Origin: a virus
DNA: 22,681 nt
Reading direction: 5' to 3' (one strand)
Virus record (IMG/VR): IMGVR_UViG_3300009494_000136
Location: 1 to 22,681 of that record
Part shown: positions 2,013 through 22,109 of the stretch, piece by piece
How positions within the stretch are numbered: position 1 is the stretch's first letter
How the letters are laid out: each line of letters opens with the position of its first letter
Notes under the pieces: generated by a model
Database searches by the model: none
Told to the model about the DNA's origin: nothing
What the model saw: the letters and a program-made list of their open reading frames with translations, nothing else
Program-made: the position numbers and the translations under genes

Positions 2013-2636
2013 TTATACCGCCTTAATTAAATTTATTTTTTTATGTAATTTTTTATGACAATCTTTACATAAAGTAATCCCATTATTTATATTCCATAAT
2101 TCTTCACAACTCATAGCTCCTTCTAAGGTAGTAATTTCATAATATTGTAAGATAGAAGATAAAGTTTTTTTATGATGAGCTTCTAAATTACCACCTTTAT
2201 CATCTCCACAATCCTGGCAAGTAAAGTTATCTCTCGTGAATACATCAGAACGCCATTGACGATATTTAAAGTTATGTCTTATTTGTTGTAAAAGGGGAGT
2301 AATACCACCTTTCCATAATGGACAATCTTTCCCTTTTTTACCATAATTAGGATGATTTTCACCTTTTTCAAATTCAGTATTGATATTAAAATGTTTACCT
2401 TTGTTCGCTTTACTTATCTTTTCTTTAACTTTTTCGGATCGATATCCTCCCTTATTCCAACCGATATGTCCTTTTTTGAATTCAGTCTGTTGTGAATTTC
2501 TGCCTTCTCTCATTTTTTCTAAAGTTTCTTCGGAATAAATTCCCGTTTTCCCTTTATTCCAGGGGATTTTACCTAAATGACTAATCCTATTATTCTCTAT
2601 AGCTTCTTTTGAACGTTTATATACTCCAGTCGGCAT
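2013..2636 (-). CDS. Homing-type endonuclease, NUMOD3 repeats plus HNH domain
   Basis: 207 residues. The N-terminal half carries NUMOD3-like DNA-binding repeats (PWNKGKTGIYSEETLEKM, GWNKGGYRSEKVKEKISKA). The C-terminal half is an HNH nuclease with a zinc-binding frame: C140-x2-C143, the H154-H155 pair, Asn184/185, C190-x2-C193-H194 and H198. Such proteins cut phage DNA at a specific site and drive their own spread by homing. The ATG directly follows the stop of the glycosyltransferase gene, with SD AAGGGAG about 8 nt upstream. The gene sits between the glycosyltransferase and the tape measure gene and plays no obvious virion role. All catalytic positions look intact, so it is probably active. 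The target is inferred to lie in a neighbouring gene of a related phage lacking this insert. Confidence 0.85.
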   Translation of the reverse strand: MPTGVYKRSKEAIENNRISHLGKIPWNKGKTGIYSEETLEKMREGRNSQQTEFKKGHIGWNKGGYRSEKVKEKISKANKGKHFNINTEFEKGENHPNYGKKGKDCPLWKGGITPLLQQIRHNFKYRQWRSDVFTRDNFTCQDCGDDKGGNLEAHHKKTLSSILQYYEITTLEGAMSCEELWNINNGITLCKDCHKKLHKKINLIKAV

Positions 2637-3833
2637 TTATTTATCTCCCTTAATCAATCTTTGTCTGCACTTTTTTGTAGCCGAAAAAATATCCCACCTT
2701 AATGGCAAACGTCCATTATTGAGGTTTATTCCCTTATTCATCATTTCTCCGGCTTTTTTGTAATTCTTTCGTTCGAAATAATAAATACTCAACCAATTTA
2801 ATATCTCAGGAAGCACAATTTTTGTATTACTAATCAGTAGTCTCTCGTATAAGCTCCCTTGTGTGCTACAAATATCAACTGCTACTAAAAAATATTCTTT
2901 AGCTTTTTCATCATTCTTACCAGCATAATAATTCCCTAGCATAAGATATATTTGTGATATCCTGCTCGAGTAATGACAGGCTTCTCTTTCTGTCTTTTCA
3001 GCATTTTTTATATCATCAAATGCTAAATATGACCCCACTATATTGACAAAACACTCTAAGAAAGCATTCCACCCTTCATTAAATTCTGCTTTTCTCATTT
3101 GTTTCATCCAAATTTTGCCATATTTGATTGTATTTTCAAAATCACGGACCACATAATAAGTTTTCACCAAGTGAGTTAGATTATGTAGATTGTCCGGATC
3201 TCTTTTGTATTCTCTTTCTAGCATTGGTAGACTGCGTTCCATCTTACTGCCTAATAGTTTTCCACCCTTTTCACCCTGGAAGATATAGCCATAATGGTTA
3301 AATATCACATCAGGAGCGAAAAGGTACGGGACCCTACATATTGGTTTATTATGAACAGCGTGTTCATAGTGGAAGTTGTCTTTATTTATAAATATTCTTG
3401 GTTGCAACATTTCAGAATATTGCTTTAAGTCCCTTTTATAATAATTATATATATTTACGAATATTGAAGGTTCCTTATATTTTGGGTTTAAGATTATATC
3501 TTCCAATCTGTAAATGGATTCTTGCCTTAATTCCTCGTCAGCGTCCACAATAAGGATCTTATCTCCAATAGCTTTTTTAATACCAAAATTCCGGGCTTTG
3601 CTAAAATCCCAGGGGATAAATTCTTTAGCATATACTTTATTAGTAAATTTTTTAGCTATATTAATTGTTCTATCAGTTGATCCTGTATCTACTACAATTA
3701 ATTCGGTGAGTGATTCTAACGTTTTATCATCTTTCATCATAATGATCGGCAAAAATGAATCTAGACAGCGTTGCAGATTTGCCTCTTCATTCTTTGCGAT
3801 CATACATATTGATAATTTTGGTTTATTCTCCAT
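2637..3833 (-). CDS. Family 2 (GT-A) glycosyltransferase with C-terminal TPR-like repeats
   Basis: 398 residues. The N-terminal domain is a GT2 glycosyltransferase: LSICMIAKNEE near residue 7, LIVVDTGSTDRT at 45-56 and the metal-binding DAD motif (IVDADEEL) at 97-99, followed by the W-D-F-S-K-A-R-N segment (75-82) that resembles the SunS/WaaE-like branch. The remaining roughly 200 residues are helical, Tyr/Leu-rich repeats resembling TPRs, a layout found in protein- or lipid-linked sugar transferases. Expected reaction: transfer of a sugar from a nucleotide donor to an unknown acceptor in the cytoplasm. It has a good SD (AAAGGAG) and begins immediately before the stop of the small upstream gene. 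Its place between tail chaperone and tape measure genes is unusual and suggests late expression; the acceptor (tail protein or host glycan) cannot be told from sequence. Confidence 0.88.
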   Translation of the reverse strand: MENKPKLSICMIAKNEEANLQRCLDSFLPIIMMKDDKTLESLTELIVVDTGSTDRTINIAKKFTNKVYAKEFIPWDFSKARNFGIKKAIGDKILIVDADEELRQESIYRLEDIILNPKYKEPSIFVNIYNYYKRDLKQYSEMLQPRIFINKDNFHYEHAVHNKPICRVPYLFAPDVIFNHYGYIFQGEKGGKLLGSKMERSLPMLEREYKRDPDNLHNLTHLVKTYYVVRDFENTIKYGKIWMKQMRKAEFNEGWNAFLECFVNIVGSYLAFDDIKNAEKTEREACHYSSRISQIYLMLGNYYAGKNDEKAKEYFLVAVDICSTQGSLYERLLISNTKIVLPEILNWLSIYYFERKNYKKAGEMMNKGINLNNGRLPLRWDIFSATKKCRQRLIKGDK

Positions 3834-6993: not shown

Positions 6994-8118
6994 TTATGCG
7001 CCCCAACTGGTATGAGACTCAGTATCGAGACTAAACATTCTATCTATTGTAGGCCAAGATGGGAATGCATTCAATTCGCTCTTTGTATATTCGGCTACGG
7101 GATCAACGTTACTCCATTTAGAAATTAAGATTGGTCCTTTTTTAGCTTGCAATACTTGTTTCGGAGGATTAGTTTCTTCCGCTATTGGACCATAAAGCAT
7201 ATCCCCACATTTTAATTCTTCGAGGAATGTTACATATCTATCTGCGCCAGCGCTATCCAGCCAGGGGTCAACCGTTACAATAGTATGATTTGCGTCTTCA
7301 TAACTTATTCTGGTATCTATTATGATTATAGTAGGGAACCCTTCAGATTTCAAAGCTTCATTGGCTATTTCTAACGTTGGTGCCCTCTGTTTTTTAGTCC
7401 CGCCGTATAAGGCAAAAGGAATAATAAAGTCCTTTACCTGGCTTGATACTCTAAATGCTAACCATTTAGATCTATTCATTAAGATATTTTCTATTTTTAC
7501 ATCATTATCTCTTGCTGTTTCTAAAACGGCTTCTATATCTGTTATAGGTTGTGAAGTTGCATATAAAGCAGTAGTCCAGTGTCTATTTGCAGCAGTCCCT
7601 CCAACATAAGCTTTATTGCCCGAGGGAAGGCCAAAATCTATATCAGCTTCAGTTATCACTCCTCCGGCATTTGTAGTTGTAGAAAGCGTTATTAGTCCTT
7701 TAGATAATGCTTGGAATACTATCCATTCCAATCTGGCATTTGCACCATCCACACAAGCATCTATATCCCCAAAGATAAGATCGAGTAAGGCATTCTGTTC
7801 GGGTTTGGCAGCAGCTTTCATGATATTATAGGTGTTAAGATCCTTTTCTGTCATTTTCTTTTTCATTCTAATGGCAGGGATCTCTCCTGATAATTTACTT
7901 ACTACCTTCCTTGTTTTTAATGGTGCGCTTACGTCATAAGCTACTACGTCAGCAGCTACTCTGTTTCCCTTAGAACCGATTAATGTTTCATATGATAGGT
8001 ATGGGGTCCATTTTAAAGGGAAAAAAGTAGGCCAAAATAATTTTTCGTATACTCTAGCGTTTAAATACGCTTGCATGTTTTTCTTATTAATTGCTGATTT
8101 TAATAATGAATATTCCAT
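6994..8118 (-). CDS. Major capsid protein (lambda gpE-like family)
   Basis: 374 residues, the length expected for capsid proteins of the lambda gpE-like group (HK97 fold). Features that suit this are the N-terminal segment VYEKLFWPTFFPLKW, a long alternating region with RMKKKMTEKDLNTYNIM (about 85-100) and a DARxDD-like loop (ETARDNDVKIENILMNRSKW, about 200-220), then the C-terminal strand ILISKWSNVDPVAEYTKSEL leading to FPSWPTIDRMFSL. The protein forms the icosahedral shell. It follows the scaffold and decoration-like genes and precedes the neck cassette, the canonical order. It has a very strong SD (AAGAGGTGA) in a leader nearly identical to that of the tail tube gene, consistent with high expression. 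Confidence 0.85.
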   Translation of the reverse strand: MEYSLLKSAINKKNMQAYLNARVYEKLFWPTFFPLKWTPYLSYETLIGSKGNRVAADVVAYDVSAPLKTRKVVSKLSGEIPAIRMKKKMTEKDLNTYNIMKAAAKPEQNALLDLIFGDIDACVDGANARLEWIVFQALSKGLITLSTTTNAGGVITEADIDFGLPSGNKAYVGGTAANRHWTTALYATSQPITDIEAVLETARDNDVKIENILMNRSKWLAFRVSSQVKDFIIPFALYGGTKKQRAPTLEIANEALKSEGFPTIIIIDTRISYEDANHTIVTVDPWLDSAGADRYVTFLEELKCGDMLYGPIAEETNPPKQVLQAKKGPILISKWSNVDPVAEYTKSELNAFPSWPTIDRMFSLDTESHTSWGA

Positions 8119-9548: not shown

Positions 9549-9995
9549 TTAATCTCCTTTATTTTTATTTTTTATTTTAAATTGCTTATTTAAATATCCT
9601 TTTAACTGAAGATATTTCTGAAGATATGCAAAATCCCCATGTTCGTATGCTTCTACCATTCGATGGCATCGAGAGCATATCCATATTCCTTTAGATAAAT
9701 TATCATCCCAATGATGATAATGTGGTTTTTTGATAGTTCTTCCGCAAAGCTCGCAATTGTCAGTCCATTCTCGTTTATTTAATCCATTAATTTTATTCTT
9801 TCCAGTACCCGTTCCTAACCTATGTTTTCGATTCCAAGCTAATGTTTTCTCTCGATTTAATTCTCTGCGGATTTTTATTTCTTCTTTATGTTCTTCCCGA
9901 TATAATTTACCGTAAGCTTTTACTCTTTCTTTATTTTGTCTATACCATTCTCTATGTGAAGCTTTACGTTGTTCATATTTATCTTTATTGTCCAC
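9549..9995 (-). CDS. HNH endonuclease-like protein
   Basis: 148 residues starting at a GTG (9993-9995) with SD AAAGGAT about 5 nt upstream. The first 65 residues are a highly basic helix. An HNH/zinc module follows: C81-x2-C84, H92-x-H94-H95, and C107-x2-C110-H111, with WICSRCHRMVEAYEHGD resembling the C-terminal part of the His-Cys HNH fold. Likely a free-standing homing endonuclease, although some phages use HNH proteins next to the packaging genes as accessory factors. That role is less likely here because the gene lies next to the scaffold rather than the terminase. It is the first gene after the terminator at 10037-10089 and its end carries the scaffold SD. Function is inferred from motifs only. 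Confidence 0.75.
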   Translation of the reverse strand: MDNKDKYEQRKASHREWYRQNKERVKAYGKLYREEHKEEIKIRRELNREKTLAWNRKHRLGTGTGKNKINGLNKREWTDNCELCGRTIKKPHYHHWDDNLSKGIWICSRCHRMVEAYEHGDFAYLQKYLQLKGYLNKQFKIKNKNKGD

Positions 9996-10242: not shown

Positions 10243-10271
10243 ATTATATATTAAAAATATTTACCTGTCAA
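10243..10271 (-). promoter_or_regulatory. Perfect-consensus sigma70 promoter
   Basis: On the minus strand, TTGACA (10266-10271) and TATAAT (10243-10248) are separated by exactly 17 nt. The -35 box overlaps the stop codon of the methyltransferase gene. Initiation would fall near 10236, giving a leader of about a dozen bases that consists essentially of the SD for the 34-residue membrane peptide. Confidence 0.8.
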
Positions 10272-10936
10272 TGTTTAAAATATTTTTGGTAATTATAGAA
10301 TATTACATCTATCTTTACAAAGATATAACTCGTATATTGTAAAGGAAAATCTATCCCGTAGATATCTATTTTAGTTGGCCCGAAGCCAATTGAGCTGAAC
10401 ATGTGTAAAATATTAACCATGAAATATGCTTCATCCACGACCTGAAGCCTTTCGGGATAATTCTTCACCATCCAAAATTGCAATCTTGGATCAGGAATAT
10501 TAAGATAGATGATGGTATTCTCGTGAGTGTATTTTTTTATATTTTCTATTAGTCCTGAAATATTCTCTTTTGGTATGTGTTCCATCACGTCCACTAGACA
10601 TATTATATCAAATTTCTGCTTTTCGAGATCAGCTTTAGTTATATCGCCAACAATATATTTGATATTTTTATGAATTGAATTTTCCTTTGCGTATTTGATT
10701 AATTTAGGTGATAGATCAACTCCAGTTACTTCTGCGCCTAATTCGGCTATATATTTTGTAGTGATTCCAGTGCCACAACCTAGATCAAGGACGTTCATAC
10801 CTTTTTTGATTATAGTTTTTAAATCTTTTTTGATTTTAACATGCCGGGGGTTTTCATGAGTATGATCATGCTTAAGATGGTCAAGAAAATTATCGTAATA
10901 GGTCTGTATTTCATTTGTAGTAATCTTTAGTTTCAT
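10268..10936 (-). CDS. SAM-dependent methyltransferase (class I)
   Basis: 222 residues. Class I Rossmann methyltransferase of the UbiG/Methyltransf_11-like type: motif I VLDLGCGTG (49-57), the acidic ribose-binding position in VTGVDLSP (70-77), and motif DIICLVDVMEHIPKE (about 114-128) with the post-motif hydrophobic strand. It would transfer a methyl group from S-adenosylmethionine. Following the glycosyltransferase gene with a 1-nt gap, it probably modifies a sugar, as methyltransferases in surface-polysaccharide clusters do, but a DNA, lipid or small-molecule substrate is not excluded. It is the last gene of the sugar block; its stop overlaps the downstream promoter's -35 box. Confidence 0.85.
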   Translation of the reverse strand: MKLKITTNEIQTYYDNFLDHLKHDHTHENPRHVKIKKDLKTIIKKGMNVLDLGCGTGITTKYIAELGAEVTGVDLSPKLIKYAKENSIHKNIKYIVGDITKADLEKQKFDIICLVDVMEHIPKENISGLIENIKKYTHENTIIYLNIPDPRLQFWMVKNYPERLQVVDEAYFMVNILHMFSSIGFGPTKIDIYGIDFPLQYTSYIFVKIDVIFYNYQKYFKH

Positions 10937-10937
10937 T

Positions 10938-11891
10938 TTATATAGCCTCCAATATTTTCTTTATTTGCCTAATTTGATTATTTAACGTCCAATCTCTATC
11001 AATTACCCAATCCCTATACATTTTCGAATAATATTCATTAATTTTTACTCTATTAGCCGCCTGTTCAACCGTATTAAAAAGGACTCTCAAAGAAGAATCT
11101 AAATTAGCGTATAATTCTTTTGCACCCCTAAAATTATGTATAACCGGTTTAATACCTCTCGCCATAGCCTCCGTTATAGCCAACGAGTGCCCTTCGTGAA
11201 TACTTGTGTGTAGTAAATAATTCTTATCTTCCCAAAATTGTTCCATATTTTCTACCCATCCGTAGAATTTTATATTATCTTGTAATCCCATCTCTTTAAT
11301 CATGTATTCCAGATAGATTTTATATCGTGTATCCTGGAATGAACCCGCTATATGGAGTGTATAACGCTTATCAATATCGACTAGTTTTTTCATTATCTGC
11401 AATGTCATTGGAGGATTTTTCTTATGATTAATATAACCTACCCAGGCAATATTATAACCTCCTTCCCGCTTTTTAAAGGGGATATTTCCTATATCGATCC
11501 CATTATATATGACTTCGGATTCAACCTTTTTATCTATATCGGGAATAGTTTCCTTTAATATATCCCTGATATGCGGTGCTACAAAGATTAACCTGTCTAC
11601 CGCAAACCAGTTAATTTGTTTTGGGAAGTCTGTAAAGATTTCGTAACTATGGAGTCTTACAATTACTTTTTTGCCTCTAATGCCCTCCTCTTGTATGTAG
11701 TTGGTACCGACTATAGTAGATTGATTTGCCCATTCAAAGAAGATTATATCAGTGCATTCGATTGCATTATATATGTCCTGTTCGGTTTTGATTATATATT
11801 TTCTCACCATATAATCATTCGATAATTTTTCTATTATTGGATCTATAAATTGATCAAGCCCTATCATACAAATAAATCCTATTCTCTTCAT
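10938..11891 (-). CDS. Family 4 (GT-B) glycosyltransferase
   Basis: 317 residues. The C-terminal nucleotide-sugar-binding half has the GT4 E-x7-E motif, EGHSLAITEAMARG, with the two Glu at 233 and 241, preceded by YNIAWVGYINHKKNP (about 146-160) and LHIAGSFQD. The N-terminal acceptor domain is shorter than usual (about 130 residues), so the whole protein is smaller than the typical 370-400. It would transfer a sugar from a nucleotide donor to an acceptor in the cytoplasm. Its place directly after the sugar-nucleotide enzymes and the zincin suggests that it uses the product made there. Specificity cannot be read from sequence. Confidence 0.87.
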   Translation of the reverse strand: MKRIGFICMIGLDQFIDPIIEKLSNDYMVRKYIIKTEQDIYNAIECTDIIFFEWANQSTIVGTNYIQEEGIRGKKVIVRLHSYEIFTDFPKQINWFAVDRLIFVAPHIRDILKETIPDIDKKVESEVIYNGIDIGNIPFKKREGGYNIAWVGYINHKKNPPMTLQIMKKLVDIDKRYTLHIAGSFQDTRYKIYLEYMIKEMGLQDNIKFYGWVENMEQFWEDKNYLLHTSIHEGHSLAITEAMARGIKPVIHNFRGAKELYANLDSSLRVLFNTVEQAANRVKINEYYSKMYRDWVIDRDWTLNNQIRQIKKILEAI

Positions 11892-12217: not shown

Positions 12218-12937
12218 TTATCCTACATAGAATTTTTGATTCTCAATTAACTGATCACTGAGTACATTCCGAATAACCCTTGCCGGTGCTCCCATAACTA
12301 CCATTCGAGCAGGCACATCTTTTGTAACTACACTCCCCGCCGCAATCAGGGCATCTTCTCCTATAACCTTACCCGGAAGAATAACCGCCCCCGCTCCGAT
12401 TCTACCGCCTTTTTTAACTGTAATGCCTTTAAAATGTTTTTTCCGTTCTTCTGTCCGGCCTATATAATTATCGTTACTTGTTACTACACCGGGAGCAATA
12501 AAAACATAATCGGCTAAATCAGAATAAGCAGTTATATAACAATTACTTTCTAATTTGCAACGCTTGCCTATTTTTACATAATTCTCTATCGTTACGCCCC
12601 TGCCTATAATAGTATATTCATCTATACTGGTATTTTCCCTTATAGAAGCTAAATCTGCAACTAAAACATGATCAGCGATATCAGAACAGATATATATTAT
12701 TGCATTAGCCCCAATTAAACAATTATTACCGATATAGGTTATGGTTAGATCAAGTTCTTCTTTGAAGATGCTTAGATCTGCCCTCATAGGACGTTTCCCG
12801 ATTATAGCATTATCATCAATCCGAACATCGTTACCAATTATAGTGCCACTTCTGATAATTACATTATAACCAACTTGGAAATTATCGCCAATTATTACAT
12901 TATCTTCGATAATTACATTTTTATCCTTTAATTTCAT
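12218..12937 (-). CDS. Hexapeptide-repeat sugar N-acyltransferase (WbpD/WlbB-like)
   Basis: 239 residues, almost wholly made of left-handed beta-helix hexapeptide repeats ([LIV]-G-x4): VIIGDNFQVGYNVIIRSGTI, NAIIGKRPM, YIGNNCLIGANAIIY and so on, ending GEDALIAAGSVVTKDVP and GAPARVIR. The loop in APGVVTSNDNYIGRTEERK is typical of acetyl-CoA-dependent acyltransferases acting on UDP-amino sugars. In the proposed route it would acetylate the 3-amino group made by the aminotransferase. It overlaps the upstream oxidoreductase gene by 4 nt (ATGA), so the pair is co-translated. Family is clear; the exact acyl group and sugar are inferred from the neighbouring genes. Confidence 0.85.
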   Translation of the reverse strand: MKLKDKNVIIEDNVIIGDNFQVGYNVIIRSGTIIGNDVRIDDNAIIGKRPMRADLSIFKEELDLTITYIGNNCLIGANAIIYICSDIADHVLVADLASIRENTSIDEYTIIGRGVTIENYVKIGKRCKLESNCYITAYSDLADYVFIAPGVVTSNDNYIGRTEERKKHFKGITVKKGGRIGAGAVILPGKVIGEDALIAAGSVVTKDVPARMVVMGAPARVIRNVLSDQLIENQKFYVG

Positions 12938-14070
12938 AGCATCCTCCCGAAATCATTAGATTTTATATCCATATTCTCATTATACCTAATAGTTCTAGAT
13001 AATCTCTGAGACTGATAAGCCATTAAGATTATACTCAGTGATTTTATCCCTTCATCCCCACTGATCAATGGTTCTCTATTATTTCCAACCGCATCTATAA
13101 AATCTTGATAAAGTGGAATGTGTCCATCACCATAAATATTATCAATATCTAAATTATATTCTTTCTGTACCTGTTCTAACGAATCTTTTTTGTCCTCAAA
13201 ATCCCAGATTAATATTTTATTTAAAGCAAGTCCGCCAATAACTGCAGTCCCCTTTTCACCTAAGATGGTAAGTGTTTCCTCTAAGTTTTTAGGATATACA
13301 TTTACAGTACCCTCAATGTTTCCGATGGCACCGTTAGCAAATTTAATTATTATGCTTCCATAATCTTCGGTTTGTATATAGGGGTGCATGTAGTTAGCAG
13401 TCTGTCCATATACTGATTTTATTTCACTGTTTATCATCCATTGAAGTAAATCTATATTGTGGGTACATTGATTTATTAAGCAACCGCCGTCTAACTTCCA
13501 AGTGCCTCGCCAATTAGCCTTATCGTAATATGCTTTATTTCGATTCCAGAGGATTCGAGCAGTACCAGCAAAGATTCGCCCAAATCGCCCTTCATTAACT
13601 GCCTGCCTTAGCTTTTGAATAGGCTTATTAAATCTATTTTGGTGACAGACTGCCAGCTTAAGCCTATTTTGCTTAGTTGTATCTATCATCTTGTTAGCGT
13701 CTGTTATTGACATTGCCATCGGTTTTTCTACGATAACGTGCTTGCCGTGGTCTAAGCAATAGAGAGCAATTTTAGCATGGTAGCCCGATTCGGTACAGAT
13801 AGAGCAGATGTCTATATCTTCTTTTTTAAGCATTTCTTTGTAATCGGAATAGATGTTAATTTTTTCTGGCTGTATGATCTTCTCAAGATTTATAGGAATA
13901 TCTATTTCATGTGTATATATTTGATAGCCTAATTTTTCTAATGCAGCTTTACCCTCTAAAATATCACAAAGAGCCACTGCCTCTATATCTTTATAATTGG
14001 CTAATACAGCTTTTAAGTGATTATCTGATATCCTACCGCAACCTATTAAGGCTAATCTTAGTTTATTCAT
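12934..14070 (-). CDS. Gfo/Idh/MocA sugar-nucleotide dehydrogenase (WbpB/WlbA-like)
   Basis: 378 residues. N-terminal NAD-binding Rossmann domain (RLALIGCGRISDNHL, residues 5-19) with the family's E-K-P motif (VIVEKPMAMS; Lys116), then an alpha/beta domain with the D-G-G (194-196) and H204-N-I-D207 catalytic region (KLDGGCLINQCTHNIDLLQW). The downstream GNIEGTVNVYPKNLEETL strongly resembles WlbA/WbpB enzymes, which oxidise the 3-hydroxyl of UDP-N-acetylglucosaminuronic acid ahead of transamination. The subgroup call rests on this and on the adjacent aminotransferase and acyltransferase. It overlaps the small gene upstream by 4 nt (ATGA), with SD AAAGGGG. Confidence 0.88.
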   Translation of the reverse strand: MNKLRLALIGCGRISDNHLKAVLANYKDIEAVALCDILEGKAALEKLGYQIYTHEIDIPINLEKIIQPEKINIYSDYKEMLKKEDIDICSICTESGYHAKIALYCLDHGKHVIVEKPMAMSITDANKMIDTTKQNRLKLAVCHQNRFNKPIQKLRQAVNEGRFGRIFAGTARILWNRNKAYYDKANWRGTWKLDGGCLINQCTHNIDLLQWMINSEIKSVYGQTANYMHPYIQTEDYGSIIIKFANGAIGNIEGTVNVYPKNLEETLTILGEKGTAVIGGLALNKILIWDFEDKKDSLEQVQKEYNLDIDNIYGDGHIPLYQDFIDAVGNNREPLISGDEGIKSLSIILMAYQSQRLSRTIRYNENMDIKSNDFGRML

Positions 14071-14246
14071 TTATCCCCTTTAATATTTGTAATTTTATCA
14101 ATTAATAAAGCGTAAAATTTCTTTTGTTTATCGTTATGTGCATTATAATATTCTGGTTCAATTAAATCTCTTATAAATATTAATAATTCATCTTTTGTTT
14201 TTACCTTTATTAATTTTGCTTTTAATTTTTCATCTGGATGTATCAT
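14067..14246 (-). CDS. Small protein of unknown function
   Basis: 59 residues, charged (Lys, Asp, Glu) and predicted helical (KLKAKLIKVKTKDELLIFIRDL, KKFYALLIDKITNI), with no recognised motif. Strong SD (AGGAG) 6 nt before the ATG; that SD overlaps the stop of the aminotransferase gene, and its own stop overlaps the next start as ATGA. The tight coupling on both sides shows it belongs to the sugar block operon, but its role is unknown. Confidence 0.6.
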   Translation of the reverse strand: MIHPDEKLKAKLIKVKTKDELLIFIRDLIEPEYYNAHNDKQKKFYALLIDKITNIKGDK

Positions 14247-14253
14247 TTATCTC

Positions 14254-15438
14254 CTATCGGTAAAATTCGCTAATCTTACTTACTACATATTCCTGTTGTT
14301 CCCCTATAAGCTCTGGATACATCGGCAAAGCCAGAACGTGTTTACTTGCATTCTCGGCCACCGGAAAATCACCAACCTCATAGCCAAGATATTCAAAGCA
14401 TTCCTGCAAGTGTAAACACAATGGATAATATATGCTCGTGTCTATGCCGTTTTGTTTTAGGTATTCCTGTAATTTGTCTCTGTCTTTTGCGTAGATTACG
14501 TATTGGTTAAAGGTGTGTTTCCGTTCAGTTATAACCCCTAAATCTATATAAGTTGTAGTCATTTTTTTATCGTCAATTAGTTTATATTCAAAGAATAATT
14601 CCTGATATTTAAGAGCTACCCAACATCTATCCTCTAACCACTTATCTAAATATCTTAATTTGATAAGCAGTATAGCCGCATGTATCTCGTCAAGCCGGGA
14701 ATTAATGCCAATATATTTATGATAGTATTTCGGGTCTGCTCCGTGAGAACGGTAAGTCCTGCAATAATCAGCATATTCAGGGTTAGAGGTTGTAATCATA
14801 CCGCCGTCTCCATAAGTGCCAAGGTTTTTAGTGGGGAAGAATGAGAAGGTAGCTAAATCGCCATAACTGCCGGCTCTTTTGCCTTTATATTCCGAGCCTA
14901 TCGACTGAGCAGAATCCTCTATAACTTTCAAGTTATATTTATTGGCTATTTTCATAATCTCATCCATCTTGCACATCTGACCATATAAATGAACGGGGAT
15001 AATTGCTTTAATTGGCTTGCCGGTTTGTCTATTCATTAACCTCCAACCTTTAGAGGTAAAAGTATAATGGTAGTTAAGGCATTCCCTCAATTGCTTAGGG
15101 TCAATATTATAAGTATCTGGCTCGATATCCACAAATATAGGAGTCGCCCCTGCCCTAACTATGCTTCCAGCAGTGGCAAAGAAGGTAAAAGGTGTAGTTA
15201 TAACACCGTCACCCTGCTTTATTCCCAAAGCTTTCAAGGCTATATAGAGAGCATCTGAACCGTTAGCAACCCCTATACCGTATCTGGTGCCTGAATAGGT
15301 TGAAATAAAGTTCTCAATTAGTTTTACATTACCGCCGTTAATAACCTTGCCAGACTCTAAAACGGATTTAATGGCTGAGTCGATTTCTTCTTTTATAGAG
15401 TGATATTGAATTGTTAAATCTAATTGTGATATTTTCAT
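14254..15438 (-). CDS. DegT/DnrJ/EryC1 sugar aminotransferase (WbpE/WlbC-like)
   Basis: 394 residues, near the usual 360-400. PLP-dependent fold type I: the substrate-binding N-terminal part (VANGSDALYIALKALG, about 58-72), the PLP phosphate and Asp region (KVIEDSAQSIGSEYKG; Asp175) and the Schiff-base lysine in SFFPTKNLGTYGDGG (Lys204). It would aminate a 3-keto sugar nucleotide using glutamate as amino donor. Its neighbours (Gfo/Idh dehydrogenase and acyltransferase) complete the two flanking steps. An insert of about 15 residues (YHYTFTSKGWRLMN) lies near residues 123-136. The start is adjacent to the upstream stop (TAAATG), with SD GGGGAGG about 15 nt away; this wider spacing is less than ideal. 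Confidence 0.9.
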   Translation of the reverse strand: MKISQLDLTIQYHSIKEEIDSAIKSVLESGKVINGGNVKLIENFISTYSGTRYGIGVANGSDALYIALKALGIKQGDGVITTPFTFFATAGSIVRAGATPIFVDIEPDTYNIDPKQLRECLNYHYTFTSKGWRLMNRQTGKPIKAIIPVHLYGQMCKMDEIMKIANKYNLKVIEDSAQSIGSEYKGKRAGSYGDLATFSFFPTKNLGTYGDGGMITTSNPEYADYCRTYRSHGADPKYYHKYIGINSRLDEIHAAILLIKLRYLDKWLEDRCWVALKYQELFFEYKLIDDKKMTTTYIDLGVITERKHTFNQYVIYAKDRDKLQEYLKQNGIDTSIYYPLCLHLQECFEYLGYEVGDFPVAENASKHVLALPMYPELIGEQQEYVVSKISEFYR

Positions 15439-15612: not shown

Positions 15613-15757
15613 CTTGTTTCTCCTTTTTGATTTTTTGTTTTTTAATACTTTCCTCTTCGTAAATCATAAAATCGATACCAGGAAATCTTTCAACGAGATT
15701 AAAAGTACCATCTGTATTTAGAAAAGAATTTTTATTATTTTTTGTTTCGGCCATCAT
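15581..15757 (-). CDS. Small protein of unknown function
   Basis: 58 residues if started at the first ATG (15755-15757) or 57 at the second (15752-15754). It overlaps the stop of the MuF gene, with the SD (AGGTGG) inside the MuF tail. The sequence is polar, with one hydrophobic patch (RFPGIDFMIYEE) followed by a Lys/Glu-rich helix. No family recognised. Its 3' end overlaps the next gene by 32 nt in another frame. Supported by the ATGA-type overlap and SD rather than by similarity. Confidence 0.55.
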   Translation of the reverse strand: MMAETKNNKNSFLNTDGTFNLVERFPGIDFMIYEEESIKKQKIKKEKQDATKEMQNGK

Positions 15758-17988
15758 TTATTCACCCACCTTTTATATTCTATACCAAATTTTTTAGCAA
15801 ACATTTCCATCGCTTCATGTGTATGCCTTTGGCTTGTTACCTTCGTCGCATATTTTACCGCTTCATCATATTTAAACCCAGATTTTATCAAATAGTCACG
15901 TCTTGATTCATATATTACCTGGTATTTCTTTTGTAATGCGGTGTTTTCTATCCTGAAAAAGTCCTTTAATTCGGTACCAGAATTTGGGAATTTAGTATTA
16001 TCTATTATTTTAACACTATATTCGTAGTTTGTCCCTATTGCCCTTACTTCGGTCCCTCTTTTATATGCTCCTAACATATTAATATCATCACCGGAAAAAC
16101 TGCTTCCAGAAGGATGATTATGTGTAAATATCATATTATCAACATTCATTCTATCAAATTCAGCTTGCGAGAAATTTATATGGTTTTTACTACCGGATTT
16201 CGAGATTAATATATTGCCTTTTTTGTCTACAGCGATACAATGTTCTATTTTAGCATCAGCATATTTCTTATTAAATTCCGATATTCTTAATAATTGCATA
16301 TCGGTTCCTGCAGGAGTCGGTGCGGGTGTAGGTATAGTTGTTCTCAATACATGATCTTTAAGCTTAAAATCTTTTGTGAAGTTATCTTTAATAAAATATG
16401 GAGTATTTTTATATCCTGTTATCGCTTTAGCATTTGTTTTTATCCATTTTGTTGCCTTTTTAGGAATCCTCAGGATATGCTTTGATTTAGCTATTTTTCC
16501 GGTTTTCATGAATTTAAGTGAATCCTTTTTGTTCAACATTATTGAGGTCGTATAACATAGACAACTCGGGTGCCAGCCAATAAAGATAAAGCCTTTTGGA
16601 TATTTTCCTACTAGATCATCGCAATTATGGACTACAAAACCTTTTATTATATAACTATTATCTTTCTTGACTTCCAGATTATATCTTGTTATAGGTGCTT
16701 TATTTTCAGCAGTCCAACTCTTAACTTTTTCAATAATTACATCCACAAATTCAAAATTATCGGAATGGTTATTTATCACTCTGTCTATTTCTTTTTTAGA
16801 AACACCTTCTCTATGTTTTGGGTTACTCCATTGTTTTTTTGTCGTTGCATTACTTGCGCAAGACTTGGAACAATATTCTCTATAATAAGGGATTTTCTTT
16901 CCACACCATTCACATCTTGAAGCTAATATTTTGACTTTATCCCCAACTTTAATATCTTTTGCCGGAGTCCATTTATCATTTACTAAAAAGGGATGATTTT
17001 CTGTTGAACTTATTTTTTTAGATTTTGCTCTATTATCATATCCACATTTATATTCAATAGTTCTCATTTCTACTTTATGAGTAGTAGTTTTATATTTTTT
17101 AGTGACCCTTCTGAATTTCCCTTCATGGGATAAAACCAAATCGTTCTCTTTTATTTTACAAATAGATACCCAACCTTTTGAAGTTAATACTTTATACATC
17201 CCCGATATAAAACACATATCAAGTCGAGGATGGCTTGCAGATAGATGAACCTCTATTCCTATTACAAAAGGTAACTGTTGTCTTCTTGTATAATCACTCA
17301 TACGATATGCCATATTTATTTCAGTTCTAGTGAGTCTTAAAGCATTTCTATAAGAGCTCCTGTAGATCCCCGATCCTGGGTGATAACCTCTAGCTGATTT
17401 ACTTAAAACTAATTTTCCTTCTTTTCTTACTCTTCTAAACAATTTATTAGGTTCGTTCAGATATTGTTTAACATCTCTTGCTATCCCTGCTGCACTTTTC
17501 CCAACTGCTATCCCCGAGCTGAGATAAAGTTCTAATTGATCCTTCGCTCCATTGACTAAATTCCAAACTCTACTACTCAAATTCATTCCGGCTGTGGTCC
17601 GGACCAAGAAGCTATCCAAGGCTACCATATTCAATTGATTAAAAGAAGCTGGGATATTCCCTTTGCCTAAAGTTATATCTTCCGCCCAGATTCCCACCAA
17701 TTTATCATTTTTTAGGTTGGCCATATCCCAGTGGGTAACAATTCCATTTTGTATATTAGATTGTATGTCTTTGTGAAGATTATTTAATATTATATTTATT
17801 CTTTTCTCTAAACTTTTATTTATTTTATAGAAAGATCCATTAACTATCTTAGTCGGGCTTTTCATTTCAATGATAGCAATTCTCATTGCTAAATCATTGG
17901 AAGCTTTGTTCAATGCTGTCTTAATTTTACTGTTATAGCTAATTATATCCAGCATATTCCTATTTTCAAATTGCCCTTCAATGCCCAT
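15754..17988 (-). CDS. MuF-type head morphogenesis protein with intein and C-terminal JAMM/JAB domain
   Basis: 744 residues as translated; about 547 after removal of the intein. The N-terminal part (1-258) is helical and leads to the MuF core: R-x-A-L-R-L-x-R-T-E (214-223), the SHPRLDM segment, and after the intein CDDLVGKYPKGF and GWHPSCLC (472-478), giving the conserved C-D-x-L-x-G...W-H-P-x-C-x-C pattern. MuF proteins are minor head proteins bound to the portal, probably ejected with the DNA. The C-terminal part has a JAMM-like site: H623-N-H625-P-S-G then S632-G-D-D635, in the RadC/JAB family of Zn metalloproteases. A Pro/Thr-rich linker (PTPAPTPAG, about 552-561) joins the two. SD GGAAC is weak. 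It lies between the portal-adjacent dehydrogenase and small genes, the usual MuF place. Confidence 0.88.
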   Translation of the reverse strand: MGIEGQFENRNMLDIISYNSKIKTALNKASNDLAMRIAIIEMKSPTKIVNGSFYKINKSLEKRINIILNNLHKDIQSNIQNGIVTHWDMANLKNDKLVGIWAEDITLGKGNIPASFNQLNMVALDSFLVRTTAGMNLSSRVWNLVNGAKDQLELYLSSGIAVGKSAAGIARDVKQYLNEPNKLFRRVRKEGKLVLSKSARGYHPGSGIYRSSYRNALRLTRTEINMAYRMSDYTRRQQLPFVIGIEVHLSASHPRLDMCFISGMYKVLTSKGWVSICKIKENDLVLSHEGKFRRVTKKYKTTTHKVEMRTIEYKCGYDNRAKSKKISSTENHPFLVNDKWTPAKDIKVGDKVKILASRCEWCGKKIPYYREYCSKSCASNATTKKQWSNPKHREGVSKKEIDRVINNHSDNFEFVDVIIEKVKSWTAENKAPITRYNLEVKKDNSYIIKGFVVHNCDDLVGKYPKGFIFIGWHPSCLCYTTSIMLNKKDSLKFMKTGKIAKSKHILRIPKKATKWIKTNAKAITGYKNTPYFIKDNFTKDFKLKDHVLRTTIPTPAPTPAGTDMQLLRISEFNKKYADAKIEHCIAVDKKGNILISKSGSKNHINFSQAEFDRMNVDNMIFTHNHPSGSSFSGDDINMLGAYKRGTEVRAIGTNYEYSVKIIDNTKFPNSGTELKDFFRIENTALQKKYQVIYESRRDYLIKSGFKYDEAVKYATKVTSQRHTHEAMEMFAKKFGIEYKRWVNK
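16624..17214 (-). other. Intein inserted in the MuF protein
   Basis: Residues 259-455 of the MuF ORF (197 residues). Block A starts with Cys259 (CFISGMYKVLTSKGW); block B has T-E-N-H-P (329-333); blocks F and G read YNLEVKKDNSYIIKG and VVHN, ending at Asn455, with Cys456 as the +1 residue. Splicing would join SHPRLDM to CDDLVGKYP and restore the MuF motif. The middle holds C359-x2-C362 and C373-x3-C377 followed by KKQWSNPKHREG, a homing-endonuclease-like DNA-binding remnant with no obvious nuclease core. Confidence 0.92.
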
Positions 17989-18771
17989 CTAGAGTTCCTT
18001 TCTTAATAAATCTCTATTCCTTTGATCAGCCATTAACATTATTCCTGGGAAGGTTTCCTTCATTTTTGCTGCATGGATCAGAAATTTAAGATCCTTAGGA
18101 AGACATTTTCCCCCTGCCCCTCTATATCCATCAAATAACGGGTCTAGGTGCATTATGTTGATGTACTTATCTAAGTTGAAGCCCTTAAGCAATTTATAAT
18201 AATTTGCCCCATATTTTTCGCAGATATCATATAATTCGTTCCCGAACACTACTTTTATTACATATAAGCTATTTAAAGCAACTTTTAATAATTCCGCTTC
18301 TATCGGTTTCATCATCATTATTTTGTTCTTTCTGTCCGGTACGTGTTTAAAAAGGTTATAGAATATTCCAAATATTTTACTCTTTTTAGTGCCTATAATT
18401 ATTTTGTCAGGACAGGTCTCGTCTAAAAAGGCTGTTCGCTCTCGTAGAAACTCCGGAAGATAAACAAATTCCCTCTTATACATTTTAGTAAATTTATCTG
18501 TCATTCCAGGCATTAAAGTTGATCTAATGGCTATTATCCCATTTTTATTTTTGTTATTCGCATAACTCATTGCAATTTTGACATCTTCGAATTTCATGTC
18601 GGCCTTAGTAGGTACGCAAATGAAAACAATTCTGGATTTGGAAATATCATCAAATAAATTTTTAATCGGATCATATCGTTGAACAAAATGCCCCATATCT
18701 TCCAATAATTTGGCAAGGCTTTCACCGATAACTCCACATCCTATTATTCCGAGATTCGTCTTTTTAAACAT
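17989..18771 (-). CDS. UDP-sugar 6-dehydrogenase-like protein lacking the C-terminal domain
   Basis: 260 residues from ATG 18769-18771, which has SD GGAG 9 nt upstream and overlaps the portal stop by 8 nt; an upstream TTG is not preferred. The NAD-binding GIIGCGVIGESLA (about 8-20), the PEFLRER motif (106-112), the ELLKVALNSLYVIK segment with Lys163/Asn167, and the catalytic-Cys motif GAGGKCLPKD (Cys223) are present. Family members are about 430 residues; the third UDP-binding domain is missing. It would oxidise UDP-glucose or UDP-GlcNAc to the uronic acid, the first step of the proposed diamino-uronic acid route, if active in this short form. It stands apart from the other sugar genes, between portal and MuF genes. 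Confidence 0.82.
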   Translation of the reverse strand: MFKKTNLGIIGCGVIGESLAKLLEDMGHFVQRYDPIKNLFDDISKSRIVFICVPTKADMKFEDVKIAMSYANNKNKNGIIAIRSTLMPGMTDKFTKMYKREFVYLPEFLRERTAFLDETCPDKIIIGTKKSKIFGIFYNLFKHVPDRKNKIMMMKPIEAELLKVALNSLYVIKVVFGNELYDICEKYGANYYKLLKGFNLDKYINIMHLDPLFDGYRGAGGKCLPKDLKFLIHAAKMKETFPGIMLMADQRNRDLLRKEL

Positions 18772-20149
18772 TAAATGATTCTCCAAGATTACTCGTCTCG
18801 CTCTTATCTTCTTCCTTTAATCGTTCTATATCTTCCTCCGCGTCACTGACGAGTGGATTTTTTCTTACAGCTTCTTTTCTACTCATTATTACATCACCAC
18901 CGCGGGCAACTGATAAGGATTTTACTAATTCATCTATGCTTTTAGGTAAAATATCTCCAAATTCAATCGATATATCTAATTCTTCTAAAGATTTTTTGGC
19001 TTTTATATTAGTTATCGATAAAATTGCTTTTAATAGATTAACCCGTCTGGTTAATGCTTCTCCAAATATCTCTTCCTTATCTTTCGCTTTCAGAATAGCG
19101 TCCATAAAGAGAAATCTAAAAGCTTCCCCAGATGTTTTGTTTAATCCTTTAACGTTATTGAGAGATAAATCAGGAGTAGAAGTTAGAGAATGAATAATAT
19201 CCTTTAAAGTCTCGTATTCTAATTTTGTAGCTTCCGGAGCGCTCTTCCAGGTTAAATATTCAGCGTCGCCATAATCAATTTTACCTTCCGCATTAGGTTC
19301 ACCTTTAAATTGCAATATCTTCCCGACCTCAGCCTTTTCCGGTGGATTAATGATCTTGCCCTTTAGCATCAGTGTAGGTGAACCAAAATAATCGTTTGTA
19401 TCCGCTGATTTACTAATCAACATTTCTATTCTGTCAATTTCGCTCTGCACTGATGTCCATTCTGGTTCAGTTTGTTCGTAATAAATTATTGTAATTTTGC
19501 CATATAGGTTATCCTTCTTTTCTCTTTGCCAGGTATCCCCTTTCTTGATTCCATAAATAGTATTTTCAGCGGTATAAATATCTACATGTTCATAAGTTTT
19601 GCCATCAATATTCTCTAATTTATATCGTCTGGTGAAGGCATCCATATCGCCGTTTTCATCAAAATGGGGATAAATATCATCGCCGTTTTCATCGCATAAT
19701 AAAGCTACCTTGATATGTGTTATATTATTATTATCAATTAGAACATACCAGAGTTCAGCCACCTTTGTTTCCACGAATAACCGTCTTGCTAACTTCCTAT
19801 TGAAGTAATCCAACTTATTATTCATCCATATATTGTTCACCAATTTAAAGGTTTCTTGATATTTATCTTCTTTATTGCCTAATATCAATTTTGCGGGGTC
19901 CCCGAATAGAAAAGCTACTGCCATGTTAACTATTTTTTCTTGGTATCGAATAACAAGTCTAGCTTGTTCAACAGTCTTAGTTGTTGAACCTTTACCAATG
20001 GTTTTTTTAGGACGGTCTAAAATATCATGTTCCCCTTTGTATTCTTTATTATATTTTTCAATATCACGTTCTACTGGGTCTTTGCATAGGATAGTGATCA
20101 CTTTTGGAAAATCGCTTTCATACTTTTCTAAAATATCTTTTATGTTCAT
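18764..20149 (-). CDS. Portal protein (SPP1 gp6-like)
   Basis: 461 residues, close to the 450-500 of SPP1 gp6-like portals. N-terminal wing, a long conserved core with VAFLFGDPAKLILG (78-91), FNRKLARRLFVETKVAELWYV (about 115-135) and a central region with EPEWTSVQSEIDRIEMLISKSADTNDYF leading to the stem helix, then LTSTPDLSLNNVKGLNKTSGEAFRFLFMDA (about 318-347), a typical portal signature with the tunnel-loop. It forms a 12-mer ring at one vertex, the channel for DNA. It starts 25 nt after the terminase stop with SD AAGGAG 9 nt upstream; order terL-portal-MuF is standard. Confidence 0.9.
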   Translation of the reverse strand: MNIKDILEKYESDFPKVITILCKDPVERDIEKYNKEYKGEHDILDRPKKTIGKGSTTKTVEQARLVIRYQEKIVNMAVAFLFGDPAKLILGNKEDKYQETFKLVNNIWMNNKLDYFNRKLARRLFVETKVAELWYVLIDNNNITHIKVALLCDENGDDIYPHFDENGDMDAFTRRYKLENIDGKTYEHVDIYTAENTIYGIKKGDTWQREKKDNLYGKITIIYYEQTEPEWTSVQSEIDRIEMLISKSADTNDYFGSPTLMLKGKIINPPEKAEVGKILQFKGEPNAEGKIDYGDAEYLTWKSAPEATKLEYETLKDIIHSLTSTPDLSLNNVKGLNKTSGEAFRFLFMDAILKAKDKEEIFGEALTRRVNLLKAILSITNIKAKKSLEELDISIEFGDILPKSIDELVKSLSVARGGDVIMSRKEAVRKNPLVSDAEEDIERLKEEDKSETSNLGESFNV

Positions 20150-20173: not shown

Positions 20174-21433
20174 CTAAAATATTCCTAATCCATCGGCAGT
20201 ATATTCCTTCTCTTCCTTCGATTCGAAAATTCTTTCTGTAAGCGAATATCTAACCTGGTCTATAAAATGATTGAACTTGTCTACCGGCACATTCATTGCC
20301 ACGCCGTCCCTGTCCTTTTTCCATTGGTATTGTTGAAATTCGTTAATTGCATTCTGGCAAGTACGGTCAATAACAATTTCAAATTGCTTCAGATACTGTA
20401 TGCCAAAGTTGATACTTCCCGGGCCCTTCTTTGCTGATAGAGCTTCTATACCGTAGCCTCTTAATTCTGCTATTGATTTAGGCTCAGCTGAATCACACCT
20501 TATATATTCCTTACCGATAGCAGGCTTTAATATACTGGCTATAACGTCATTGGTTAGCCCCTTCTCATATATTATCTCCTGTAGGATATATAGCTTCTTG
20601 CCTTTGATGGCTTGCCTACCTGCCGCCGCTTCATCATTACTATACCCGAAGTCCAGTCCGTTATAATAAGTCCCGAAGGTATTTTTAAGCTTCGACAGGT
20701 CTGCGACTTTCCAGTTAGTAAAGATTAAGTCGCCTAATATACCCCAGTTGCCTAAGGTGTAGACGTCCCTGTAATAGGAGTCTTTTTCGTTTTCTAATTC
20801 GTCATGGTCAGCCTGTTCTAAGAATCTATTATTCTTATGAGTCGTTTTTAGAATTGTTAAGTTTTCATCATGATATTCGAAGCTACCTTCTACCCAATTG
20901 ATGAAGAATTCTTTAAATATCCAGTGGCTACGCATAATAGGATTGAACAATAATGTTATCCTCTTTTTAACCCCGCCAGCTAACCCTCGTGTTCTTATTT
21001 TTAATTGCCTAAAAGCTTCCTTCTTTGTTTCAGTTGCTTCTTCGACAATAACATCAGTAATAACGCCCTTTTCCGGTATAATTGATTTAAGCTTTTCGGG
21101 ATCATCCAAACCCCTAAAGAGTATCTGATATCCATTTCCGCAAGTTATAGTCATTTCCGATTTATTAATCTTGAATAGCTTACTTACACCAAAGTTTGAT
21201 ATAACCTTCTTTATTTCGTTAAAAACTGAAGCTCTTATTGTATTCGCTGTGTTTCTGATTACAAGATAGTTTCGGCCACCCTTTAAGAGGTCTACCACAC
21301 ATCTTTGAAAGACGAAAACACTTTTACCTCCCGAAGCTCCACCGAAAAATATTTGTATTCTTGTATCATTGTCTAAATAAGGAATATAGACTGGATTAAA
21401 GATATCTTCATCAATTTTTATATCACAACGCAT
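20174..21433 (-). CDS. Terminase large subunit (PBSX/Terminase_3 type)
   Basis: 419 residues. ATPase domain: Walker A FFGGASGGKS (residues 29-38), Walker B VIVEEATE (128-135) and a coupling motif near LLFNPIM. Nuclease domain (RNase H fold): acidic positions Asp261 (GLDFGYSNDEA), Asp314 (CDSAEP) and Asp392 (FNHFIDQVRYS). It powers DNA packaging and cuts the concatemer. The start at 21431-21433 is preceded only by a weak SD-like GAGAG; the end of the GIY-YIG gene overlaps it by 11 nt, so expression probably relies on coupling. Conserved motifs are all intact, so it is functional by inspection. Confidence 0.95.
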   Translation of the reverse strand: MRCDIKIDEDIFNPVYIPYLDNDTRIQIFFGGASGGKSVFVFQRCVVDLLKGGRNYLVIRNTANTIRASVFNEIKKVISNFGVSKLFKINKSEMTITCGNGYQILFRGLDDPEKLKSIIPEKGVITDVIVEEATETKKEAFRQLKIRTRGLAGGVKKRITLLFNPIMRSHWIFKEFFINWVEGSFEYHDENLTILKTTHKNNRFLEQADHDELENEKDSYYRDVYTLGNWGILGDLIFTNWKVADLSKLKNTFGTYYNGLDFGYSNDEAAAGRQAIKGKKLYILQEIIYEKGLTNDVIASILKPAIGKEYIRCDSAEPKSIAELRGYGIEALSAKKGPGSINFGIQYLKQFEIVIDRTCQNAINEFQQYQWKKDRDGVAMNVPVDKFNHFIDQVRYSLTERIFESKEEKEYTADGLGIF

Positions 21434-22109
21434 TACTTATTTCTCTCAAGCGATTTCTTTCTTTTCTCCATCTAAGTTTTTGGCTTTCACTTCTCATTAT
21501 TTTTTCTTCTTCTGATTGTGTACGGCCTAACCCATATTTATTACCAATTGAAGCCAGACCTATCTTTCTCTTAGCCTCTTCCGTATGCTTATAACCAGAA
21601 TTTTTATTACCTATTTTTATTCTTGTTTCTTCTGAAACAGTATGCCCCAATAAAGTATTTCTAATTTTATCTTTTGTTTCCTCTGTAGTGGTATGACGTA
21701 TGCCAAGACTATTTTGTTTCCCCATCATTCTAATAGATATTTTCTTGCGAATTTCCTCAGATATTATTTTGCCTTTTTGTACTATACTTTGTTTTTTTCT
21801 ATATTCGTCACTACGAATTACCCCTAAACTATTCCCAGCAATAGGGCAAATATTATATTCAGGAGACTCTTTGTCAAGATAATCTTGTTCGTTCTTTAAT
21901 AAATGTTTTATTTCACATTTAAGAAGAATGATAAAATTAAAATTTTCTTCTCCATATTTTTCCCATGCTCGCTGTAAATGTATATTATGATGAATATTAT
22001 TCTTAAGTCTAAGAATATGTAATCTCCACCGTTCCTTTATATTGATAGATGAACCAATATATTTATGTCCATTAATTATATTGTTAATAGCGTATATACC
22101 AGATATCAT
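21423..22109 (-). CDS. GIY-YIG homing endonuclease with NUMOD3 repeats
   Basis: 228 residues. Catalytic GIY-YIG domain at the N-terminus: G4-I5-Y6, Y17-I18-G19, R27 and Glu74 with Y77. The C-terminal half (about 112-215) is a tandem array of NUMOD3-like DNA-binding motifs (SEEIRKKISIRMMGKQNS, TEETKDKIRNTLLGHTVS, SEETRIKIGNKNSG). Resembles Seg-type T4 or I-TevI-like homing nucleases: free-standing genes that cut near their own position in rivals lacking them. It starts at ATG 22107-22109 with SD AGAGGG and overlaps the terS stop by ATGA, while its end overlaps terL. It thus lies in the terS-terL junction without interrupting either gene. It appears intact and probably active. Confidence 0.9.
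   Translation of the reverse strand: MISGIYAINNIINGHKYIGSSINIKERWRLHILRLKNNIHHNIHLQRAWEKYGEENFNFIILLKCEIKHLLKNEQDYLDKESPEYNICPIAGNSLGVIRSDEYRKKQSIVQKGKIISEEIRKKISIRMMGKQNSLGIRHTTTEETKDKIRNTLLGHTVSEETRIKIGNKNSGYKHTEEAKRKIGLASIGNKYGLGRTQSEEEKIMRSESQKLRWRKERNRLREISNAL

Follow-up and report, generated by a model that had tools for sequence, protein, structure and literature searches.

The gene for a MuF-type head protein in a metagenome-derived virus carries, directly before the first conserved Cys of the MuF core, what is very likely a self-excising mini-intein that arose from an EDxHD homing intein by deletion of the nuclease. The window, as it is called here, comprises the whole virus record (IMG/VR IMGVR_UViG_3300009494_000136; 22,681 bp). 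At this one MuF site, three allele states of the homing cycle (empty, full-length, and endonuclease-deleted) exist in closely related phages: the window copy is the natural mini-intein, an allele termed L002 is its full-length counterpart, and alleles resembling L003 are potential cleavage targets of the latter.

The intein and the head protein that it interrupts

The interrupted protein, P0001, is encoded by a single ORF of 744 aa (15754–17988, minus strand), around which PHROGs identify a head module with portal (18764–20149), large terminase (20174–21433), and major head protein (6994–8118). The N-extein (residues 1–258; 17215–17988, minus strand) ends in ...SHPRLDM, and the C-extein (15757–16623, minus strand) comprises the rest of the MuF core (CDDLVGKYP...HPSCLC, with HPSCLC at 16555–16572, minus strand; alignment A2) and a variable C-terminal domain. 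The extein matches PHROG head morphogenesis and minor head families 7625, 1657, and 115 (E down to 4e-43), homologs in Riemerella phages are annotated as “head morphogenesis capsid protein”, and the motif C..G.YP...HPxCxC is conserved in the extein and its homologs, which marks the protein as MuF-type. Pfam Phage_Mu_F gives no match to the extein, which belongs to a divergent subfamily. The C-terminal domain (15757–16314, minus strand) includes a RadC/JAB-like motif, HNHPSG...S..D (16072–16149, minus strand), with a weak Pfam RadC match (E=0.035) that lies below the cut-off. This motif is kept in L003–L017 and the domain is absent from shorter homologs (L002, L021, L022, and others), which stop near extein residue 353, so the tail of the MuF protein is modular.

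The segment that interrupts the conserved core of this protein comprises residues 259–455 of P0001 (197 aa; 16624–17214, minus strand) and reads CFISG...SSTENHPF...YNLEVKKDNSYIIKGFVVHN, followed by Cys. Cys1, the splicing nucleophile in block A (CFISG; 17212–17214, minus strand), is invariant in alignments A1 and A4. Block B contains T71-E-N-H74 (TxxH; 16993–17004, minus strand), of which T71 and H74 are invariant in A1, A4, and A5. Blocks F and G read YNLEV...GFVVHN, where the VVHN sequence, covered by TIGR01443, ends in the C-terminal cleavage residues His196-Asn197 (16624–16629, minus strand). Directly after it stands Cys+1 (16621–16623, minus strand); in the MuF motif, CDDLxGxYP, this residue is at the same time the first conserved Cys.

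Pfam Intein_splicing (PF14890) matches the segment with E=2.4e-11 (44.1 bits; cut-off, 35.8), NCBIfam intein_Cterm (TIGR01443) with 17.6 bits (cut-off, 15.6), and PT-HINT with E=1.4e-10, also above its cut-off. An AlphaFold2 model has the HINT fold, with pLDDT 85 overall and above 93 in the splicing blocks. Fold search with this model retrieved the inteins of Ssp DnaB (5e-7), Mtu RecA, and gp41-1 (E about 1e-6), and among the matches listed from 52 PDB fold matches at E≤0.001, all are inteins or other HINT domains. Like the window intein, the Ssp DnaB, Mtu RecA, and gp41-1 mini-inteins have the HINT fold and class 1 chemistry and are endonuclease-free; structural-alignment identity to them is about 12–15%, and they are about 125–160 aa in length, whereas the window intein has 197 aa owing to an extra finger, which is inserted within the HINT domain of the model. 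A single-sequence PDB search with the window intein gave no strong match (best E=0.13), and its best match in public phage records, where no close relative was found, was a thymidylate synthase intein with 33% identity; the L002 intein likewise has no close relative in those records.

The position-1 nucleophile, TxxH, His-Asn with Cys+1, the HINT fold, and the precise empty alleles described below establish computationally that the segment is a class 1 intein, for which splicing is predicted and which is probably active. The earlier note had proposed an intein at 16624–17214 in the conserved core of a MuF head protein, with Cys1, TxxH, VVHN, and Cys+1 all visible; its coordinates, strand, and length are exact, each splicing block is confirmed, and excision of the 197 residues, which it said would restore the MuF motif, indeed yields the uninterrupted sequence of the relatives. 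A split intein is rejected, as the HINT domain lies in the single 744-aa ORF. After translation, an N–S acyl shift at Cys1 would open class 1 excision of the HINT domain, the chain would then be transferred to Cys+1, and cyclisation of Asn197, aided by His196, would release the intein, with ligation of SHPRLDM to CDDLVGKYP giving an ordinary MuF protein of 547 aa.

Elsewhere in the window, a free-standing GIY-YIG + NUMOD3 homing endonuclease gene (21423–22109, minus strand) overlaps the large terminase gene at its start, an HNH + NUMOD3 endonuclease is encoded at 2013–2636 (minus strand), and a small ORF (9549–9995, minus strand) has an HNH-like Cys/His pattern, with no endonuclease family above cut-off. 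Thus, several homing-type endonuclease genes are present in 22.7 kb. Interleaved with the head genes is a nucleotide-sugar/glycosylation cassette (2637–3833, 10268–11891, 12218–15438, and 17989–18786, all minus strand), which includes a UDP-sugar dehydrogenase between portal and MuF, a DegT aminotransferase, a hexapeptide acetyltransferase, glycosyltransferases, a methyltransferase, and a Gfo/Idh/MocA oxidoreductase, for which the best-scoring model, UDP-GlcNAc 3-dehydrogenase, stays below its cut-off. The cassette is similar to WbpA/B/E/D, a set for a diacetamido uronic acid.

Alleles at the insertion site, the deletion, and horizontal movement

When IMG/VR was scanned with the complete protein, 25 relatives were retrieved. 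At 23 viral loci, SHPRLDM (or its equivalent) passes directly into CDDLxGxYP without an insert; extein identity to the window is roughly 64–78% in the close inteinless viral loci, 40% in L025, and 33% in L026. Relatives in bacterial genomes (GTDB), mostly Bacteroidales, are uninterrupted at the site without exception (67 of 67), and the +1 Cys is invariant across the inteinless viral and genome homologs. The relatives of the window phage suggest that its host may belong to the Bacteroidota. Inteinless alleles at this MuF site, for which the earlier note had suggested a search, are thus represented by 23 viral and 67 genome loci, and homologs that hold the segment as a normal domain, which it had considered damaging to its reading, were not seen. 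The segment as a normal domain is rejected, because most relatives are without it and all carriers at the site have complete splice junctions.

Full-length alleles at the same site were found in two groups, and these, like the window, all come from metagenome assemblies. L002 has an intein of 365 aa, which is 90% and 82% identical to the window intein on the two sides of an extra segment of 168 residues, and six near-identical contigs (L028–L033) have a 365-aa intein that is 80% identical to that of L002. In the extra segment, DUF559 scores above its cut-off. With profile A5, its top PDB match is 3r3p, the catalytic domain of I-Bth0305I (E=4.3e-7), and fold search also finds 3r3p (TM 0.76 on target). 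By sequence and by fold, the nuclease domain of L002 and L028 is therefore homologous to I-Bth0305I and belongs to the EDxHD/Vsr homing endonucleases, an accepted family (PMC3943268) described from split inteins (Dassa et al. 2009, according to PMC12350094); here, in contrast, EDxHD domains occur in contiguous inteins together with a treble-clef finger. Between L002 and L028, the endonuclease segment has dN 0.13 and dS 1.1 (a rough Nei–Gojobori estimate near saturation, as are all dS values given here), which points to purifying selection. The window intein has no such domain and is not itself an EDxHD/Vsr homing-endonuclease intein; because 168 codons are absent, it is filed as a mini-intein.

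The window and L002 inteins are 591 and 1095 nt long, a difference of exactly 504 nt, in frame, and all splicing residues are still present in the shorter form. Relative to L002, 504 bp (168 codons) have thus been deleted, and the scar (...SKK^EIDRV...; 16786–16800, minus strand) shows microhomology of about 4 nt (AAAG). The nuclease is present in the outgroup L028 and in further, deeper inteins at the site (L136–L139), and in the intein tree the window joins L002 (100/92) inside a clade specific to the site (100/99), the other members of which carry the endonuclease. This indicates that the nuclease has been lost rather than gained. What was left behind is an orphan treble-clef or zinc-finger-like module, C101-x2-C104-x10-C115-x3-C119 (16858–16914, minus strand), in which the four Cys are near-invariant among relatives and for which there is a weak match to a Pfam treble-clef family (DUF2116); L002 and L028 have the same module ahead of their EDxHD domain. 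In comparison with these alleles, the window intein is an endonuclease-deleted mini-intein that retains a treble-clef finger, a derivation that was not visible to the earlier note.

The ancestor of this element was very likely a 365-aa full-length homing intein with an EDxHD/Vsr-type endonuclease. With the help of the treble-clef finger, this nuclease presumably cleaved MuF alleles in which the site was empty, and the intein would have been copied into them during mixed infections [for the homing-cycle model as it is described, see PMC1654191]. In-frame loss of the 168-codon nuclease part then left an element reduced to predicted splicing, in which the finger is an orphan, i.e., a degenerate stage of the homing cycle, which is most likely no longer mobile alone.

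The intein has moved horizontally, because the histories of intein and exteins differ in both divergence and trees. For window versus L002, the intein has dS 0.80 and dN 0.054 (dN/dS about 0.07; 13.5% nucleotide difference across the shared intein), whereas in the exteins dS is saturated and dN is 0.20. For L002 versus L028, the intein has dS 0.87 and dN 0.105, and the exteins have saturated dS and dN 0.36–0.47; overall, synonymous divergence of the inteins is about 0.8–1.0 between saturated flanks. In the extein tree, a fork with 99/99 support separates the window, which groups with inteinless alleles, from L002, the window's own place being an open fork and that of L028, a long branch beside L025, being unreliable. 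The route of transfer was presumably homing. In the 30-nt upstream flank, identity between the window and L002 is 0.90, compared with at most 0.80 between the window and 17 inteinless alleles, and this is a weak sign of co-conversion, from 30 nt on one side only.

Alternative readings of the finger, the scar, and the HINT domain

Perhaps, the retained CxxC...CxxxC finger binds zinc or senses redox, thereby making splicing conditional and timing head assembly. The finger region has been kept without decay, with one change in 44 residues of the window intein, and the independent mini-intein L041 also retains all four Cys after loss of the nuclease. However, a recent deletion alone could explain this retention, the finger accompanies the nuclease (it also stands before the HNH domain of L196), and the relatives L198 (140 aa) and L044 are without it. 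Because it travels with the nuclease, the finger is most simply seen as a leftover DNA-binding part. Splicing regulated through the finger is possible in view of its retention, but as an account of this intein it is improbable. A wider form of the idea, in which MuF proteins host many EDxHD-finger inteins of one lineage at three Cys that resemble zinc ligands, and finger-keeping mini-inteins such as that of the window have been preserved as zinc or redox switches timing head assembly, is similarly improbable.

The deletion that removed the nuclease may also have killed splicing, in which case the MuF protein would stay interrupted and the contig would represent a defective phage. Of the 12 amino-acid changes private to the window, 5 fall within the 15 residues just downstream of the scar, as relaxed constraint or repair would give. 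Against this stand the intact catalytic residues, the open ORF, the low dN/dS relative to L002, the confident model of the splicing blocks, and the intact extein motif; moreover, a dead insert in the core of a head protein is expected to be lethal. We regard this outcome as quite unlikely.

Assembly might have created the 504-bp deletion in a phage whose true intein is full-length, but there is very little chance of this. The record is derived from a metagenome, and the scans returned no other contig with the identical mini form; however, the microhomology of about 4 nt at the scar is far below assembler k-mers, other endonuclease-less forms exist (L041, L188, L186, and L198), and the 13.5% nucleotide difference across the shared intein means that the window is not a chimera of the L002 contig.

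Finally, MuF proteins carry polymorphic toxins whose HINT domains process the C-terminus (PMC3482391), and the PT-HINT family scores above its cut-off here, but such a processing domain, or a bacterial intein-like domain, is rejected as almost certainly wrong, because the segment lies inside the conserved MuF core rather than ahead of a variable toxin domain, shows a complete splice junction at its C-terminal end, where the +1 Cys is invariant, and has precise empty alleles and full-length forms bearing a homing endonuclease. The preferred reading thus remains that of a mini-intein derived from an EDxHD homing intein.

MuF proteins as a recurrent intein target

Further relatives were sought with intein-only alignments, the search patterns being taken from intein blocks only. 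The first scan of genome contigs, with intein alignment A1, gave no match; the intein-only scans revealed a lineage of inteins with finger and EDxHD domain, dozens of them in MuF proteins. Among the N-exteins of 46 intein relatives, Pfam Phage_Mu_F is found in at least 28 and a PHROG of the head module in about 30, a share that may be overestimated because the profile was seeded with MuF inteins. Two match uracil-DNA glycosylase, so the lineage has also left MuF. Three insertion sites are used: site a, before the first Cys (window, L002, L028, L136–L139, and, in another subfamily, L038); site b, before the first Cys of CRC (most relatives); and site c, before the second Cys of CRC (e.g. L140, L144, L166, and L186). 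Erosion of the endonuclease recurs, being partial in L188 and L186, down to the finger in the window and L041, and minimal in L198.

MuF head proteins are thus a recurrent intein target with three Cys sites, and annotation resources can miss it. PHROG 36001, 15127, and 21587 (matches in L035–L044, L034, and L028) align to both MuF exteins and intein, and so appear to have been built from unrecognised intein-interrupted head proteins.

The description of a MuF intein as unusual, given in the earlier note, does not hold in view of these relatives and of two precedents, to which the window intein adds a further instance. The Mu-like prophage of Methylococcus capsulatus Bath has an intein in its F protein (Mu gp30), reported in 2004 (PMC517821), which is likewise in a MuF head protein and without a recognisable endonuclease; it was reported as nearest to archaeal IF-2 inteins, and, unlike for the window, full-length or empty counterparts are not described for it. 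The cryophage AB09 intein, which lies in a minor head protein and was reported in 2020 (PMC7468147), resembles that of the window in its metagenomic origin and presence/absence variation, but is about 0.8 kb and has a homing endonuclease, which the window form has lost. In the literature searched, coverage of which was incomplete, no description of a MuF-associated EDxHD intein family was found; this lineage and the three-state allele set are the main points of interest.

Several further inteins were observed. In L196 (3001–3855), the same treble-clef finger is followed by an HNH nuclease in place of EDxHD, i.e., a nuclease swap on one scaffold. In L191, L193, and L199, members of this intein lineage are inserted ahead of a conserved CRP motif, and L040, L041, and L044 encode portal-MuF fusion proteins in which the inteins are also in the MuF part. 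MuF proteins of Bacteroidales prophages (L097, L118, and L119) have an apparently LAGLIDADG-type intein, which, like that of the window, is in a homologous MuF protein, but is at site b, before CRC, ends in GSN rather than VHN, and has a different type of nuclease (weak LAGLIDADG_3 Pfam matches, below cut-off, in two of the three). As in MuF polymorphic toxins, Gln_amidase/CdiA_C-like domains are present at the C-terminus of L118 and L119.
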